Origin: a virus
IMG/VR virus record: IMGVR_UViG_3300032282_004885
Location: 1-28,863 of that record
Strand: one strand, 5' to 3'
DNA length: 28,863 nt
Shown: one piece after another, positions 11,383-18,576 of the stretch
Numbering within the stretch: the stretch's first letter is position 1
How the letters are laid out: each line of letters starts with the position of its first letter
Notes under the pieces: generated by a model
What the model saw: the letters and a program-made list of their open reading frames with translations, nothing else
Told to the model about the DNA's origin: nothing
The model's database searches: none
Program-made: the position numbers and the translations under genes

Positions 11383-13914
11383 TTACCTCCCGTTTTCATA
11401 GCCGGTCGCTAATGCTGCAGCAATTTCCGGAGATATTACTGTTCCCATGGTGCTAATTAAATTTGCCGATTGAAATCTTGATATTTCTTCAATTTTTGGC
11501 TTCAACACTTCGATAATCTTTTGTCCATCTATACTAACCGATAATGGAACAAACGCAGTTGTCTGTGCAGATGGTGCATTTTTCGAAACTGCTGAATTTG
11601 TAACACCAGAAGTGTTAGTTGCAGTACTCATATTGAAGCTGACTGTTTCTGTTGGTGCAGAAGAAGCAGAGATTTTTTCTGGCTCAGAAATCATTTTAAA
11701 TATCGATGTGAATTTTGCTTCCATTCCTTCAATCGAAGTCATACCAGAAACTGCTACATTTAATTCTGAAATTGCTTTTGCTAGTTGAGTTATAGATTTT
11801 GTAATTTTTTCTAATCCATCTGTATCCATTAGTGCTAAATCAGTCATAAATTTAGATATAGAAGAAGAAGTTGTTGCAAAATCTTTAGACGCTTTATTTA
11901 GTTTTTCGAAAGCCTCTGCAATACCTTGCAATCCGGTTGAAACAATTATTAGTGCTCCTCCCATAATCGCTAAAGCAGCTGCTAAAGCAGTAAATCCAAG
12001 AATTCCAAGAGTAAATGCTGCAAAACCAACACCAGAACCTAAAATAGCACCAAGACCCATAATCATTCCGAATACAAGTGTTAGTAATCCTAATCCTGCT
12101 ATAATTTCACTAAATTTAAGATCCGACATTTTACTTAATCCTGCGACCAAGGCAACTATAACTGCTGCAATCATGCCTGCAACTAATATACCTAATACAA
12201 CTCTTGGAAAATTATCTGCTAAACGCTTGAAGAAACTTGATATTGCACTACCAATAGATGATACAGTTGATCTAAAGCTTTGTGCTGCAGCGGGATTTGG
12301 GGCTCCTGCTGTCGTAGAAGTAAGTAATTTACCAAATCCAAATATTTTCTTTCCTAAAGCAGTAAATGCTTTACCAATTAGTGAAAACTTCCATAAAAAT
12401 AAAGCAGTAAACGATATAAGTGCCGCTGAAGCGTCCTTTCCCAAAAAGGAAGAAAGAACTTCGTGAATTCCTTGAACTGCTTTTGCTAAAAGAGTTGTTA
12501 TTTGCATAAATCCACTAATGAATGGTTGTGCAATAACAATTAATCCATTCAAGGTGCTTTGCAATTTATCCATTGCTACACTAGTTTCTAGAGCCTGATC
12601 AGCAAGTGATTTTTTCGCCGCTATTGAATCTTGTTCTAATTGAGTGTTTTTATTTAATATGTTTCCAAATAGTTTACCAGCTTCATTGAGATCTCTAATT
12701 CCGGCAGCATTCGCAATAGCCATTTTTTCAAATCGGTTCATCTCTTCCCATTGTCGACCACTCGCTTTAACGCCTTCTTGTAATAATCTAATTCTCTCTT
12801 CATCACTTGCTGTCAGTAATTCAATTGCATTAAATTGATCACCAAGCATTGCATTTAAAGTTCCTGCTTTTCTTGCAGCATCTTCAAATGTATCAAATCC
12901 TTGAGCGATATTAATCAATTCACTTATTTTAAGACCCGTTTTTAACGATTGTTCTGCGAGACCATCAAGTACTTTTGTCATTTGATCTCCATATCCAACA
13001 AATCTTGAAGAATTTTCTGCAAATGCTTCTGAAAGAGTATTCAACGCCATTTTATTTTTTGCGGCCATTTGAACAAAACTTTGTTGTATATTTGCAGCTT
13101 GTTGTGGGGTTTTACCCATAGCATTGATGAGAGTATCAAATCCTTTTGCCGCAGAAGCTCCACTTACACCTATTTTTTCTAAATGTGATTGCGTGGTGCC
13201 AATCGCAGTCGCTGCAGCAACACCATAAGCGCGTAAATTATTAAAACCAGATGACAAATTAGCCAATGCTTTTTGTCCCTGCTCGAATGTTACACCAGAA
13301 GCAAGATTATTTACCGCTATGTTTTTTGAAATTTCAGATATTTCTTTATTATATCCACCGGTTAATTTAAATAAATTAACCATCACTTCTTCTTGCTTTA
13401 TTAGATTATTTTTTATTTGTTCTCCAATAGACAATATTGCAGTTCTTGATTTCTCTAGTTCTTTTGCATCTTTGAGTTCTTTTGCTTGCTCATCTGTTAT
13501 TTCTTTTAGCTTCTTTATTTTTGCATCTAATTTATCTGCTTCTTCTTTCGTTAATTTGCCTTGTTCTTCTAAAACCTTCTTTTGTTCTATTAATTTAGCA
13601 GCCTGAAGAATATTTGCAGAATAAGAATCGGAAAGAAGTTGTAGTCTTTCTTCTTCAATACCTTTTATAACTTTTTCATAATCAGTTATGTTTTTTTTAT
13701 TTTCTAAAATTAGTTCTTCTTTCTTTTTAATTTCTTCAAGTCTTTTATTTCTATTTTCTACTGCTTTATATAAATCGTCTTCTAATTGTTTTTCATAACT
13801 GGCATCTTTTTGTGGCTGTATACCACCTATATTAGAACCTGAATCGCTGGTTCCAGTTTGTTTTGATATTGCTTCAGCAATTGCTTTTGCTAATTTGTTT
13901 GGATCAATATCCAT
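11383..13914 (-). CDS. 29: Tail tape measure protein, 843 aa
   Basis: Sets tail length and is expelled from the tube at infection. Visible features: charged coiled coil (about residues 40-170), a helical central region, then several long hydrophobic segments (about 498-517, 570-592, 605-628 and 631-658), and a soluble C-terminus with Ser/Thr-rich linker and a final helical part. This architecture and the position after the gp26/chaperone genes and before the tube-cap gene mark it as the tape measure, the counterpart of T4 gp29 (590 aa). It is longer than gp29, which predicts a longer tail than T4 if length scales. The start has AGGAA 8 nt upstream. A 12-bp hairpin precedes the gene. Confidence 0.85.
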   Translation of the reverse strand: MDIDPNKLAKAIAEAISKQTGTSDSGSNIGGIQPQKDASYEKQLEDDLYKAVENRNKRLEEIKKKEELILENKKNITDYEKVIKGIEEERLQLLSDSYSANILQAAKLIEQKKVLEEQGKLTKEEADKLDAKIKKLKEITDEQAKELKDAKELEKSRTAILSIGEQIKNNLIKQEEVMVNLFKLTGGYNKEISEISKNIAVNNLASGVTFEQGQKALANLSSGFNNLRAYGVAAATAIGTTQSHLEKIGVSGASAAKGFDTLINAMGKTPQQAANIQQSFVQMAAKNKMALNTLSEAFAENSSRFVGYGDQMTKVLDGLAEQSLKTGLKISELINIAQGFDTFEDAARKAGTLNAMLGDQFNAIELLTASDEERIRLLQEGVKASGRQWEEMNRFEKMAIANAAGIRDLNEAGKLFGNILNKNTQLEQDSIAAKKSLADQALETSVAMDKLQSTLNGLIVIAQPFISGFMQITTLLAKAVQGIHEVLSSFLGKDASAALISFTALFLWKFSLIGKAFTALGKKIFGFGKLLTSTTAGAPNPAAAQSFRSTVSSIGSAISSFFKRLADNFPRVVLGILVAGMIAAVIVALVAGLSKMSDLKFSEIIAGLGLLTLVFGMIMGLGAILGSGVGFAAFTLGILGFTALAAALAIMGGALIIVSTGLQGIAEAFEKLNKASKDFATTSSSISKFMTDLALMDTDGLEKITKSITQLAKAISELNVAVSGMTSIEGMEAKFTSIFKMISEPEKISASSAPTETVSFNMSTATNTSGVTNSAVSKNAPSAQTTAFVPLSVSIDGQKIIEVLKPKIEEISRFQSANLISTMGTVISPEIAAALATGYENGR

Positions 13915-13982: not shown

Positions 13983-14213
13983 TCATCGCCTTGAGGCTTT
14001 TTCTATCTGTTCTGCTTCTTCTCGTTTTTGTTTTACCAAACGCTTGACAAACCAGTCTCGTATTGATATTGGTAAGTTGTAAGCCTCGGTAAAGCTCCAT
14101 CCACCATGATATTTTAATGCGAAAAATGCTTCATATACCGATTCGATATATTCATCACTTAGTCCAAAAAAATTCCATATTAAATGGAACCTCCATGTCT
14201 GCGCTGTATTCAC
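13983..14213 (-). CDS. gp51/tail-chaperone-like frame, probably read by frameshift from the gp26-type gene
   Basis: A 76-codon frame overlapping the end of the gp26-type gene by 59 nt in the +1 (equally -2) frame. Its only upstream start is GTG at 14213, with no Shine-Dalgarno at a workable distance. Protein-like sequence begins after the overlap: G-L-S-D-E-Y-I-E-S-V-Y-E-A-F-F-A-L, Y-H-G-G-W-S-F-T-E-A-Y-N-L-P and a charged C-terminal helix. This helix-rich pattern with G-x-S-F-T-E and N-L-P resembles small gp51 or tail-assembly-chaperone extensions of T4-like phages. A run of seven T (14172-14166) in the overlap offers a slip site; the fused protein would be 346 aa (286 + 60). It lies directly before the tape measure gene, where G/GT-type chaperones are found. 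It may instead be a coupled separate protein. Confidence 0.65.
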   Translation of the reverse strand: MNTAQTWRFHLIWNFFGLSDEYIESVYEAFFALKYHGGWSFTEAYNLPISIRDWFVKRLVKQKREEAEQIEKASRR

Positions 14214-15024
14214 AGGCTTTACAAGTAAATTCCTGAGTTAAATCAACATTTGGAGTTACTAATTTATATGCTTCTCTCAAAAATCTGCTGTCTTTAACAG
14301 GAAGTACATCTATGAATTTAGAAATAAGAGATTTATCTGTCTCTCCTTCAGCACTTTCTATCATTAATTTTAATTGTTGTGTATTGCTGCTGTCAATAGT
14401 GCTCTGCTTGTTTGCTTCTATTATTTGTGTAATAGCACGCTCATCATTACCGTCCATTAAACGAATATTTACAGTAACATCAGTTTTTGGTAATTTAACT
14501 GAAAAAACTCTACCATTAACATGTTTTATACTATCATGCATGTTTTCTGGTATATTACCCTCAAATATTTTTTTATTTTCATCTAACAAGAAAGAAAACT
14601 TTGTACTTGTCAAACAAGATGGACATGTAGCACTGGTAGTATATTTACTACCAAAGCCTGATATTCTTGCATCAATTAATATCGCATTTCTATCTCCAAC
14701 TAATAATTCTGCTGGATTAATAGATTTATCTACCAAAAGACTTTCAATTAATCGATCTAATACTATTCCCTTTTTAATAAGGGATTTTGAAGTAAGTATA
14801 TCTTCTTCTTTTGCTGTCATAAACTTTATTTCTAAAGTTTCTTTTCCATGTAAAGGACTTCCCGGTTTATAGAATTTTCCTTTTGATGGTAGTTCCACAA
14901 AAAGAGTTGGAGCGGCAAAGGCCAAGTCTAATTTTGACTTTAGCCCGCCGCTTGCAACTACATTTGTAGAGACTGGATCTTCGCCTGCTATTTGCAGCCT
15001 ACGTTCATTGTCTCTATCATTCAT
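14155..15024 (-). CDS. 26: gp26-type baseplate/hub assembly protein with zinc-ribbon cysteines, 289 aa
   Basis: Matches the T4 gp26-type baseplate family by pattern: L-P-S-K-G-K-F-Y (45-52), L-E-I-K-F-M-T-A-K-E-E-D-I-L (64-77), I-D-R-L-type helix, and G-D-R-N-A-I-L-I-D-A-R (110-120). Two CxxC pairs, Cys134/Cys137 and Cys268/Cys271, could form a zinc ribbon that closes the chain. T4 gp26 (208 aa) is an assembly factor of the baseplate hub; the role here is inferred from family and position between tube and tape measure genes. The start has AGAGGTG 5 nt upstream. The 3' end contains TTTTTTT, a possible frameshift site into the following frame. No terminator separates it from the tube gene. Confidence 0.8.
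   Translation of the reverse strand: MNDRDNERRLQIAGEDPVSTNVVASGGLKSKLDLAFAAPTLFVELPSKGKFYKPGSPLHGKETLEIKFMTAKEEDILTSKSLIKKGIVLDRLIESLLVDKSINPAELLVGDRNAILIDARISGFGSKYTTSATCPSCLTSTKFSFLLDENKKIFEGNIPENMHDSIKHVNGRVFSVKLPKTDVTVNIRLMDGNDERAITQIIEANKQSTIDSSNTQQLKLMIESAEGETDKSLISKFIDVLPVKDSRFLREAYKLVTPNVDLTQEFTCKACEYSADMEVPFNMEFFWTK
14164..14175 (-). other. Candidate ribosomal frameshift site (T7 run)
   Basis: On the coding strand GAA TTT TTT TGG in the gp26-type frame. Slipping +1 after the second TTT gives GGA CTA AGT and enters the 76-codon frame; a -2 slip does the same with one more Phe. The upstream frame stops three codons later (TGA at 14157-14155). No clear downstream pseudoknot was identified by eye. 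Confidence 0.5.
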
Positions 15025-15052: not shown

Positions 15053-15685
15053 TCAGGAACCAAATGGATTTACTGATTGCTCATCGCGTTGTGCTTTAAA
15101 TTCTGCCCAATCATATCTTAAAGCAATCGTTACTGTTAATATATCTTCAGAACCATAATCAAGAGCATCTGGCTTTATAGATTCTAAATAAGCATTTTTA
15201 AGCATCCATTGTTCCGCTACTCCAGTATCTTCTACAGAAGCTGGATAATTCACTGAATCAGTGGCATTTTCCGGAAGTGCTGTAAGAGCAGAATTCAATA
15301 CTCTTATATTTACATTTCCCAGAGCATTTACGGCTGCTTGTTTTCCAACAGTGACAACAGAACCATCAGCATTGATTAGACCACTCAAACCGGACTTTAA
15401 AAATACTGCTAATAAAGAACGATTTGTATCAATAGTACTAACATCACCTGTTTTTTGAATATCAACTAGTTTTATTGTTAGTGGATTTGGATCCCAAGTG
15501 ACACGACCTGGATGATAAAATGATTTATTGAAGTACTTGTGTTCTGACATTCCAAGTTTAACACCTGGTCTATCACATGTTTGTGCTAAGAATTGAAAAT
15601 CTGTTAAATCTGCACCAGTAAAAGTTATTAAATATCTAAATTTTCTTTTTGGTTCTAGTGCGGCATTAGTCCAGTGTAAACTCAT
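15053..15685 (-). CDS. 19: Tail tube protein (gp19-type), 210 aa
   Basis: Forms the inner tube through which DNA passes. The order sheath-tube and the pattern F-R-Y-L-I-T-F-T-G, F-L-A-Q-T-C-D-R-P-G, H-P-G-R-V-T-W-D-P-N-P-L-T-I-K-L and C-terminal I-L-T-V-T-I-A-L-R-Y-D-W-A match gp19-type tube proteins (T4 gp19: 163 aa; F..L..E+.+.+D). It is somewhat longer than T4 gp19, with an inserted central segment (about 85-140). Start: AAGGA 9 nt upstream. It lies 38 nt after the sheath gene, with no terminator. Some T4-like baseplate tube proteins have the same fold, but the size and position next to gp18 favour the main tube protein. Confidence 0.85.
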   Translation of the reverse strand: MSLHWTNAALEPKRKFRYLITFTGADLTDFQFLAQTCDRPGVKLGMSEHKYFNKSFYHPGRVTWDPNPLTIKLVDIQKTGDVSTIDTNRSLLAVFLKSGLSGLINADGSVVTVGKQAAVNALGNVNIRVLNSALTALPENATDSVNYPASVEDTGVAEQWMLKNAYLESIKPDALDYGSEDILTVTIALRYDWAEFKAQRDEQSVNPFGS

Positions 15686-15723: not shown

Positions 15724-18576
15724 TCAATCGTCAAAACTTGCACCGGTATTTGTTATGATGAAGTCAATTGCGATAAATTCAATTGCACGGGCTGGTTTAA
15801 TATAAACTTTAGCGTACATGATATTGCGATCAACAAGATCTGGAGTTGTTGTTGTTTGATCGAGAACAACTTTGTAATCGCTTAAACCAAATCTTGCTTT
15901 TGTATCTGCAAGCAATGGATCAACTTGAGCAACAAATCTATCCCAAGTAACTTTTAAGTTTGGATCAAACAAGATGCCTCTTGAAATTTTGCCAATTCTA
16001 TCTTTGAGATAGATTGCAAGACGACGAACATTTATACGGTCAAGAGCACTTGCTGTTGCTTGTAGTGTCTTCTGGCCAAAGATTACAATACCTTCGCTTG
16101 GGAATGAAGCGATTGGATTAACGTTTACTTCATATAGAGCATCACGCTGTTTGAGTGACAATCTTTCACGAACATCAAGAACAGTTAAGCCTGATGAACC
16201 GTTACTTAAACCACCGCGATTAAATCCTGCTGGAGCAAACCATACAGCGGTTGCTTCTTGTGATGAAGCCATTGTTCCAAGGGCCACAACTGATGGTGGA
16301 ACCCATAGTGGATTTCCATTTCCTGCGTCTATCGAAACCCAAGGATAATATGCACAACCAAAACTATTATTTAAGTTTCTTGATTTAATGCTTACAACAG
16401 CGGCATTAACATTACCAATTCTACTTCTTTCAGCATTTGCTTCTTCTGTTGTTGGTTTGTAGCCGCCTTCAATATCAATTATGGCAAGTGTATCATTTCT
16501 ATTTTTTGCTGTATCAAGAACCTTGTTTGTTACGGTTGTATTGGTAATACCAGGAACTGTTAATAAATTCATTTCAACAACTTCTGGATCAGAAACCATA
16601 TCGATAGCTTTTGATAGTGAATAGTGAACATAATTTGTTGCTGGATTGTCATTTGGGCTTAATAAGCGATTTGCAAATGGTTCTTTTTCTTTTATATCTA
16701 AGCCGTCAAAACCACCAAACATTGGAATGGTAAATCGGTTGACGCCTTGATCAAGTGTGTTTTTGTACGATGGAGATGAACCTGTTGCAGACAATGAAGA
16801 ACCTGCTGTTCTGGAATTTTTCTGCCATGCATATTTACCAGATACTAATGTACTGCCAGAAACAGCTTCTTTAACATCATCAAGAGTGAATATTGTAGAA
16901 TATTCAGTTATTGAACCAGATGGAACAAAGGTGTCTAAATTATATGGTTTTATTCTAACAAGATCGACATAGTCTTCATTCAATTTATTTAGTGTTGATA
17001 CATTTGTAACAACTCCATAATAAGCATCGCGATCATTTAAAACACCGGCTTCTGAACTTGAAACTCTTAATTTAACTTCTGGAAACAATAATGAAGCAGT
17101 TAAATCGGCTATACCAGTCATATCAACTGGTTTTGTAGAACCAGACAACATAAGAGGTATAGAGCCACTTACTTTGACTATATCATTACCACTTAAACTT
17201 GAAGTTGTTAGAGTGCATGATTTATATCTAACCGGTCCGAGGAAGCCGAATGGTAGACTTTCAGGATCTACGCCGCCTTCTTCGACTAGAGGGTTCATTT
17301 CTACGCGAACCAATTTAGAAACATTATCATAATTTCCAAATACTTTGTGTCTCTTTTCACCGGTCGATAAACTGTCAGTCCATTCAGTGTATTTATCACC
17401 AATTCTCTTAGCAATATAATTGTCAGAGTTTGGATTTAGATTTACGCCTGAGAATACTTCTAATACATTTGGAGAACCATCTGTATCTGATGTTGAACGA
17501 ATTTCAACTGTGAAAGAACCGTATTTTTCAAAAGTTGTTGGTGAATATCTAATATTTGAAATTGATACTTTCAACTCTCTTTGGGTCCAGTCACCCGAAC
17601 CTTCTCCACCAAGAGCAACAAATCTAAATAATTTAGACATACTTTCTGGATTATAAGAACCAGTAATAGTGCTCAAGTCTTGTGAAAATATCCAACCGGT
17701 TTGTGCTGGGGCAGCAACTTTTTGGAAATTAGATAAGTCGACTGCACTATTTTTAAGACCGGCGATGAATGCATAGCAACTACCGGTAGCAATATTATCA
17801 CTAACAAAATCTGTAAAAGTTTCACCAAGCCAATATTTTTCTCTATTATCGGGCGAAGTGATGCTTGTATTGACAAGTGTTGGATTTGTATTAAACACTT
17901 TACGAATATATTTATCAGAATTTTTGTCAAAATTAAATGATGTATCTAATAATGCTGTACTATTAACATTATCACTTCCAAGAACTTTCATTCGGAATTC
18001 ATAACTATTGCCTATTGATTTGACGAATGCTGCTGAAGCAGTAATCATACTTCCTGTTGGATTTTGACCAACAAGAGCCAAACCTACGTCGTTATTGACA
18101 TAAAATATGGCGCCTAATACACCTGTAACTTCTGTTGCAGAGCTTGATGGTACTATGAACAAACCGTAAGCACCACCATTACTTGTAACACTTGAAGAAT
18201 TAATCGTATTTGTTGTTTTCCAACCTGCTTCGCCACCACTAGTATTTGATGGATGCTGCGAACCCATCAAACGAACATATGTTAATGGACTTGAATTTGC
18301 TAAATATGCTTTTGCTGCCCAAGTACCATAAATTGGAGCAGTTAAATTTCCTTCTCTCCACACGTCACCATCGGTTGTGCCACGAACTGGTTCACCGAAT
18401 ATCGATACAAATTCTTCATATGAACGCACTTTTACAGGAACCATACCTGGACCGCGACGAGCACGACCGATAATAACTGGACCTACGCCTTCATTTAAAT
18501 TATTGATCTGTGAACGATCGATTTCTTTAATTTGAATTCCGGGAGAAACGAAACGAAATTTATTAGCACCACTCAT
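15724..18576 (-). CDS. 18: Contractile tail sheath protein (gp18-type), 950 aa
   Basis: The sheath subunit that surrounds the tube and contracts at infection. The N-terminus has the typical sheath start: F-V-S-P-G-I-Q-I-K-E-I-D, G-V-G-P-V-I-I-G-R-A-R-R-G-P, then V-R-S-Y-E-E-F-V-S-I-F-G. The C-terminal region also fits (I-N-V-R-R-L-A-I-Y-L-K-D-R-I, R-F-V-A-Q-V-D-P-L-L, V-Y-I-K-P-A-R-A-I-E-F-I). At 950 aa it is well above T4 gp18 (659); the extra length is a Ser/Thr/Asn-rich insertion between about 100 and 650, probably surface-exposed domains. The start has AGGAG 8 nt upstream. The ACTATTTA motif lies 35 nt before the ATG, so sheath and tube probably begin a late transcript here. Confidence 0.95.
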   Translation of the reverse strand: MSGANKFRFVSPGIQIKEIDRSQINNLNEGVGPVIIGRARRGPGMVPVKVRSYEEFVSIFGEPVRGTTDGDVWREGNLTAPIYGTWAAKAYLANSSPLTYVRLMGSQHPSNTSGGEAGWKTTNTINSSSVTSNGGAYGLFIVPSSSATEVTGVLGAIFYVNNDVGLALVGQNPTGSMITASAAFVKSIGNSYEFRMKVLGSDNVNSTALLDTSFNFDKNSDKYIRKVFNTNPTLVNTSITSPDNREKYWLGETFTDFVSDNIATGSCYAFIAGLKNSAVDLSNFQKVAAPAQTGWIFSQDLSTITGSYNPESMSKLFRFVALGGEGSGDWTQRELKVSISNIRYSPTTFEKYGSFTVEIRSTSDTDGSPNVLEVFSGVNLNPNSDNYIAKRIGDKYTEWTDSLSTGEKRHKVFGNYDNVSKLVRVEMNPLVEEGGVDPESLPFGFLGPVRYKSCTLTTSSLSGNDIVKVSGSIPLMLSGSTKPVDMTGIADLTASLLFPEVKLRVSSSEAGVLNDRDAYYGVVTNVSTLNKLNEDYVDLVRIKPYNLDTFVPSGSITEYSTIFTLDDVKEAVSGSTLVSGKYAWQKNSRTAGSSLSATGSSPSYKNTLDQGVNRFTIPMFGGFDGLDIKEKEPFANRLLSPNDNPATNYVHYSLSKAIDMVSDPEVVEMNLLTVPGITNTTVTNKVLDTAKNRNDTLAIIDIEGGYKPTTEEANAERSRIGNVNAAVVSIKSRNLNNSFGCAYYPWVSIDAGNGNPLWVPPSVVALGTMASSQEATAVWFAPAGFNRGGLSNGSSGLTVLDVRERLSLKQRDALYEVNVNPIASFPSEGIVIFGQKTLQATASALDRINVRRLAIYLKDRIGKISRGILFDPNLKVTWDRFVAQVDPLLADTKARFGLSDYKVVLDQTTTTPDLVDRNIMYAKVYIKPARAIEFIAIDFIITNTGASFDD

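Follow-up and report, generated by a model that had tools for sequence, protein, structure and literature searches.

A two-product tail assembly chaperone gene of T4-like phages with a conserved TTT TTT TGG junction and a probable +1 ribosomal frameshift

The tail genes considered here lie on the minus strand of a 28,863-nucleotide stretch of DNA from an uncultured T4-like phage (IMG/VR record IMGVR_UViG_3300032282_004885), referred to below as the window. A gp26-type gene is located between the tail tube gene and a long gene whose product is taken as the putative tape measure from its position and length (Table 1). A PHROG search with this 843-aa protein gave no significant match, and the position homologous to 11383-13914 in Flavobacterium phage immuto is annotated as tape measure. 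The tail sheath protein, at 950 aa, is roughly double the PHROG 23 profile (496), so it appears to carry a long insertion. Rfam and tRNA scans of the whole window gave no matches.

Table 1 Features of the chaperone locus and of the neighbouring tail genes in the window
Feature	Position	Strand	Remarks
Short form (TAC-N), predicted gp26-type tail assembly chaperone, zero frame	14155..15024	-	289 aa; PHROG 150, PF12322
TGA stop of short form	14155..14157	-	third codon past TTT TTT TGG
Putative slip site TTT TTT TGG	14164..14172	-	9 bases invariant in 40/40 representatives
+1-frame C-terminal extension, predicted gp51-type TAC-C	13983..14165	-	60 aa + stop, starting GGA CTA AGT
GTG, sole possible second-frame start upstream of the site in the window	14211..14213	-	without Shine-Dalgarno; judged unused
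GGAGGT, Shine-Dalgarno-like, lineage-specific conserved element	14189..14194	-	GAG at 34/34 Glu codons
Possible hairpin TTCCAT-TTAAT-ATGGAA directly 5' of the T run	14173..14189	-	lineage-specific
Next gene, long helical protein, putative tape measure	11383..13914	-	843 aa; by position and length
Preceding gene, tail tube	15053..15685	-	PHROG 4542 tail tube, E 2.4e-16
Tail sheath	15724..18576	-	PHROG 23 tail sheath, E 7.7e-66

The gp26-type ORF ends in ATG GAA TTT TTT TGG ACT AAG TGA, that is, three codons after GAA TTT TTT TGG, exactly as described in an earlier, sequence-only reading of this DNA. The second frame (13983-14213, minus strand) stands in a +1 or -2 relation to it and, also as first described, overlaps it by 59 nt (14155-14213). 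A +1 slip at the end of the gp26-type frame would join 286 residues of the first protein to 60 of the second, giving the 346-aa fusion that had been predicted.

Both parts of this fusion are related to proteins of T4. The short form matched PHROG 150 (baseplate hub, E 5.6e-15) as well as the Pfam family PF12322 (T4_baseplate), to which it belongs at 43.1 bits against a curated cut-off of 24.5. The two parts were modelled separately by structure prediction. The short-form model (pLDDT 85.8) found the HK97 tail assembly chaperone 2ob9 as its top match among solved structures when using VIA-align (Z 4.3, 91 aligned, rmsd 4.8), a similarity below the level that proves homology; Foldseek gave E 1.2, and many baseplate hub and hub-assembly chaperone matches were obtained against viral models. 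The extension was modelled as a three-helix domain (pLDDT 92.7). It had no match above Z 2.3 among solved structures and resembles the predicted Gp51 of P-HM1 and two annotated tail/tape-measure chaperones (E 0.17 to 1.4, prob 0.90 to 0.99). Its sequence aligned with the gp51-type C-part of Kyanoviridae (hhalign prob 89, E 2e-6), which in turn matches PHROG 634 (E 4e-23); the direct match of the window clade's C-part to PHROG 634 is weak (E 0.049). A further match was to PHROG 20255 (E 8e-7). Weak matches to the Pfam family DUF6760, of unknown function, were seen in 10 of 15 C-parts (window 13986-14165 and relatives, best E 0.00036), and DUF6760 members elsewhere may be counterparts of the C-part domain.

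In T4, gp26 matches PHROG 150 at 14-235 while gp51 matches PHROG 150 at 13-280 and PHROG 634 in addition; gp51 is thus a gp26-like protein with an extension. The T4 short and long forms are encoded by two separate genes on opposite strands. Judged from these homologies, the product of the window's gene is a predicted tail assembly chaperone, with the short form a T4 gp26 homologue and the added 60 residues a gp51-type C-domain. The sequence-only reading had seen a gp26-type protein being joined to a chaperone; this part has to be revised, as the gp26-type protein would itself be the short chaperone and the counterpart of gpG. The pair fits the TAC-N/TAC-NC pair of T4-like phages (gp26/gp51) as far as described in the portions of the literature available to us, namely the same homologous genes in the same place before the tape measure. 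The extension lies in another frame, is conserved as protein, is attached close to where the first ORF stops and is homologous to the gp51-type C-domain via the Kyanoviridae C-part, the direct match being weak.

Within the window the T7GG motif is no commoner than chance (one match to TTTTTTTGG vs 1.7 expected from shuffles), so its significance rests on comparison with relatives. A first set consisted of 80 IMG/VR loci with 39 to 81% identity in the first protein. Counting the window, TTTTTTTGG is found at the junction in 78/81 loci and TTCTTTTGG in 3/81, the +1 frame is open through the junction in all 81, and a zero-frame stop follows the site after 2-4 codons in the 80 relatives. Forty representatives chosen at <70% identity all carry the complete TTT TTT TGG (TTTTTTTGG). 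In the remainder of the gene TTT makes up 75% of the Phe codons, by which TTT TTT would be expected in about 21 of the 40, in a naive test that ignores the relatedness of the sequences.

With further scans the census reached 195 distinct related loci. The +1 relation is found at the homologous point in 180 of them, with one of a family of five sites: TTTTTTTGG (130 loci), TTTCTTTGG (29), TTCTTTTGG (16), TTTCTATGG (4) and TTTCTTTAC (1). Conservation of the T7 run and of the frame relation, which the sequence-only reading had named as a check, therefore holds, and none of these 180 loci encodes the second part as a separate gene. UGG is retained at the site throughout the +1 loci of the census except in L134 (UAC), L084 (UUC) and L356 (UUC). 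UUC UUU UGG occurs on separate branches of the tree (L008 group, L188 clade and L279; 16 distinct loci). The +1 junction is also present in seven bacterial MAG contigs, mostly from Flavobacteriales, with TTTTTTTGG visible in 5/7 and TTTTTTTTC in 1/7, and isolates carry the site as well, namely the Microcystis phage Mel-JY01 (TTT TTT TGG) and, in a near variant, immuto (TTT CTT TGG). The window itself is a single contig, so an indel error (six or eight T in reality) or a decaying gene had to be considered. That the site recurs in these isolates and across about 180 distinct assembled loci refutes a sequencing error and leaves the absence of a biological frameshift with a vanishingly small probability.

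Substitution patterns change frame at the same point. Variation among the representatives is highest at the third position of 0-frame codons upstream of the site and at the third position of +1-frame codons downstream, with zero variation in the nine site bases. Among downstream single-base codon differences, the synonymous share is 0.775 when read in the +1 frame vs 0.115 in the 0 frame and 0.176 in the -1 frame. The frame of synonymous variation thus changes from 0 to +1 precisely at the site, which bears out the earlier impression that the second frame becomes protein-like right after the T7 run; by this measure, the second frame is evidently protein-coding from the T run onward.

Independent initiation of the second part, at the GTG within the gp26-type gene or by coupling and with no fusion being made, would be an alternative way of expressing it. 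The GTG (first base at 14213) is found in the same place in most close relatives, and in two other loci (L198 and L203) the second part does have an ORF of its own with an ATG. However, as had been noted from the sequence, the second frame's GTG-only start has no ribosome-binding site: no suitably spaced Shine-Dalgarno precedes it, in contrast to GAGG, AGGA or GGGAGG at the neighbouring genes. For this reason, and since it is not conserved in all relatives, the GTG was rejected as second-frame start. ATG, GTG and TTG are all absent between the last +1-frame stop and the site in 13/81 loci. The +1 ORFs of L032 and L033 are entirely devoid of ATG, GTG and TTG, so a join is the only known route to the second part there. 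Moreover, the +1-frame coding constraint starts at the site and not at the GTG. Taken together, a separately started gene is hardly credible at this locus, and it is almost certain, as judged from the sequence comparisons, that the long chaperone form is made by frameshifting. Programmed frameshifting, the mechanism originally proposed, is supported.

We hypothesize that one gene would give rise to two tail assembly chaperones by ribosomal +1 slippage, a reading to which we assign a high, though not overwhelming, probability. Most ribosomes would stay in the zero frame up to the stop and produce the 289-aa short form, while a presumed minority would shift to +1 at TTT TTT TGG. While tRNA-Phe occupies UUU in the P site and the A site holds UGG (Trp), the tRNA would advance by one base in the 3' direction onto the overlapping UUU, GGA would be read as the next codon, and 60 codons in the new frame would complete the 346-aa long form. 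By analogy with lambda gpG, the short form may coat the tape measure, and by analogy with lambda gpGT, the C-domain of the long form may recruit the tail tube. Re-pairing at the sites would be from UUU to UUU or from CUU to UUU. These shift codons, CUU_U and UUU_U, are of the prfB type; five loci (TTTCTATGG and L084) need UUU_C. In the four TTT CTA TGG loci the CUA tRNA is unable to re-pair at +1, so here the slip would have to take place at the preceding codon (UUU to UUC), and L084 likewise requires an earlier slip on UUU_C. With this provision, a single mechanism, +1 P-site slippage, would account for nearly all site variants. Slow decoding of Trp would fit as the reason why UGG has been kept.

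The site variants also bear on other ways of reaching the same frame. A -1 shift of the canonical type does not apply, as the junction does not follow the X XXY YYZ heptamer (most loci have A, C or G directly ahead of TTT TTT) and the -1 frame is closed within 8-122 nt in the window's relatives. A -2 shift, for which there is precedent in phage Mu (PMC5009743), would add one extra Phe (F-F-F-G-L), and the T7 run does let UUU re-pair at -2; at the CUU site, too, the -2 codon UUC is compatible by pairing alone. At UUC UUU UGG, however, the -2 codon is UCU, which has a middle-position mismatch for tRNA-Phe, and 16 loci on separate branches nevertheless keep the frame. Sites at which -2 re-pairing fails favour +1, and we regard a -2 shift as very improbable.

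Slippage of RNA polymerase on the T7 run could in principle yield the same fusion by normal translation of a fraction of mRNAs with U6 (or U9), stimulated by the hairpin. The run is invariant in the window's superclade, the hairpin lies directly 5' of it in the window and in about 30% of representatives, and a known case, the hairpin-stimulated slippage in a Roseiflexus IS630 element, loses one residue, the direction needed here (PMC5009743). On the other hand, TTCTTTTGG (16 loci) and TTTCTTTGG (29 loci) contain T runs of only 3-4 and keep the same frame, UUC UUU UGG and UUU CUU UGG have no homopolymer longer than four, many T7 loci lack the hairpin (L038, L051, L057, L066, L071 and L075), and runs of about nine are usual for slippage without structure (PMC5009743). 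Polymerase slippage is therefore improbable, and ribosomal +1 slippage remains our preferred reading.

Synonymous constraint is strong upstream of the site, at 14173-14194 (minus strand) of the window and in the corresponding stretch of L016-L080. Within the window's superclade, GAG is used for 34/34 Glu codons at -27 (background 0.34, p 1e-16), CCG for 24/39 Pro codons at -21, GCG is preferred at -12, and GAC is used for 21/22 Asp codons at -9; third-position G/C upstream of the site is about 0.8-0.95 vs 0.34. The favoured codons together form GGAGGT and, in about 30% of representatives and the window itself, also the hairpin. Both elements are restricted to part of the superclade: GGAGG is present in 57/80 superclade loci and 0/94 loci of two other clades, and the four core pairs of the hairpin form in 25/85 representatives, which led us to reject a universal upstream hairpin. 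Shine-Dalgarno sequences precede 88% of genes near the window and 70% of those elsewhere in the superclade. The upstream element is absent in the L188 clade, though 76% of genes there have a Shine-Dalgarno, and in the immuto clade (L083, L096-L175), where the figure is about 8%, in line with Bacteroidota hosts, and the +1 site is retained. No stimulator common to all clades was found, nor was a conserved 3' pseudoknot or stem-loop detected by consensus folding and single-sequence z-scores over 60-90 bases downstream. The GGAGGT/hairpin element may tune shift efficiency; it is not a general requirement for the shift.

The 15 census loci outside the five-site family show other solutions at the homologous junction. 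Five are distant phages with a +1 relation at other sites, seven have a -1 relation, and three (L198, L203 and L085) show no link. The -1 loci comprise a Kyanoviridae-type clade (L089, L176-L185) including C48C1 and the jumbo phages (L090, L092, L093) Atu_ph07, PA5oct and 7t3. They have the same gene pair with a slip by Phe-Phe at the gp26 end and a stop close by, but, unlike in the window, the extension continues in the -1 frame from T TTT TTT or T TTT TTC. Mapped on the first protein's tree, the frame state requires three changes, and the -1 loci form one side of a branch with support 90, with long branches that make their placement unsure. The Bacillus, Listeria and Streptococcus phages SP-15, LIS04 and GXN1 (L086, L087, L088) have a +1 junction without T7GG; they have in common xCC CGA TTy close to the end, which points to another +1 site, perhaps xCC_CGA. 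SP-15 used as search query matched itself alone. In BRock the +1 site is perhaps UUU_C. In L198 and L203, which belong to a second clade, the +1 frame is closed and a gp51-type part with its own ATG follows just past the gp26 stop in another frame, an unlinked state in which the join may have been lost recently.

Vladimirov, Gautam and Davidson (2022, Virology 566:9-15) reportedly described frameshifting in several T4-like groups, with genes 26 and 51 being separate in the T4 group. Their work is cited for frameshifted T4-like chaperones in the sections of PMC10274946 and PMC12846349 available to us. Judging by these excerpts, frameshifted chaperones of T4-like phages are already known outside the T4 group, so the earlier remark that a frameshift would be unusual here stands for its direction and site and not for frameshifting as such. 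The slippery sites that PMC12846349 cites from this work are poly-T -1 signals, in contrast to the +1 shift at UUU_UGG or CUU_UGG proposed here. The new parts are the switch between -1 and +1 among clades and a conserved +1 signal at a sense codon. Lambda gpG/gpGT likewise come from one gene located between those for tail tube and tape measure and share their N-part, but they use a -1 shift and belong to a different protein family by sequence (PMC5009743).

A parallel for the proposed slippage is the +1 shift of prfB (RF2), which usually occurs at CUU_U and in a minority of low-GC genomes at UUU_U (PMC5009743; PMC12421855), the same P-site codons as at the phage site. However, prfB has a stop in the A site and the Shine-Dalgarno-like AGGGGG three bases before the site. 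The phage site has neither: its A site holds the Trp codon UGG, and GGAGG is found 19-20 bases before, in one superclade only. Among known +1 contexts, UUU_U with a sense codon in the A site is weaker than CUU preceding a stop. Frameshifting to +1 in tail genes is also known from the Halorubrum tailed virus HSTV-2 and from the Listeria phages A118, A500 and PSA (PMC5009743), the latter shifting at CCC_UGA in the major tail protein gene, unlike the site described here.

The proposed frameshift would account for a gene overlooked in annotation. For Mel-JY01, immuto, SP-15, BRock and C48C1, a chance or late start codon has been taken as the beginning of the extension, a late TTG in the case of C48C1. 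Evenly balanced, in our judgement, is the broader proposal that these sites are a natural class of efficient bacterial +1 recoding with the sense codon UGG in the A site, spread over at least three T4-like clades, some of them in hosts without Shine-Dalgarno use, tuned by GGAGG and hairpin in one superclade, and with the direction of the shift (-1 or +1) swapped while the two-product output is kept. The loci would provide a large number of natural +1 sites at which the A site holds a sense codon, a context in which the rules are poorly known. The same two-product chaperone would be made in three ways at one homologous junction, by a -1 shift, by a +1 shift or from separate genes, and this diversity would make it testable what must be conserved, the ratio of the two products or the signal.
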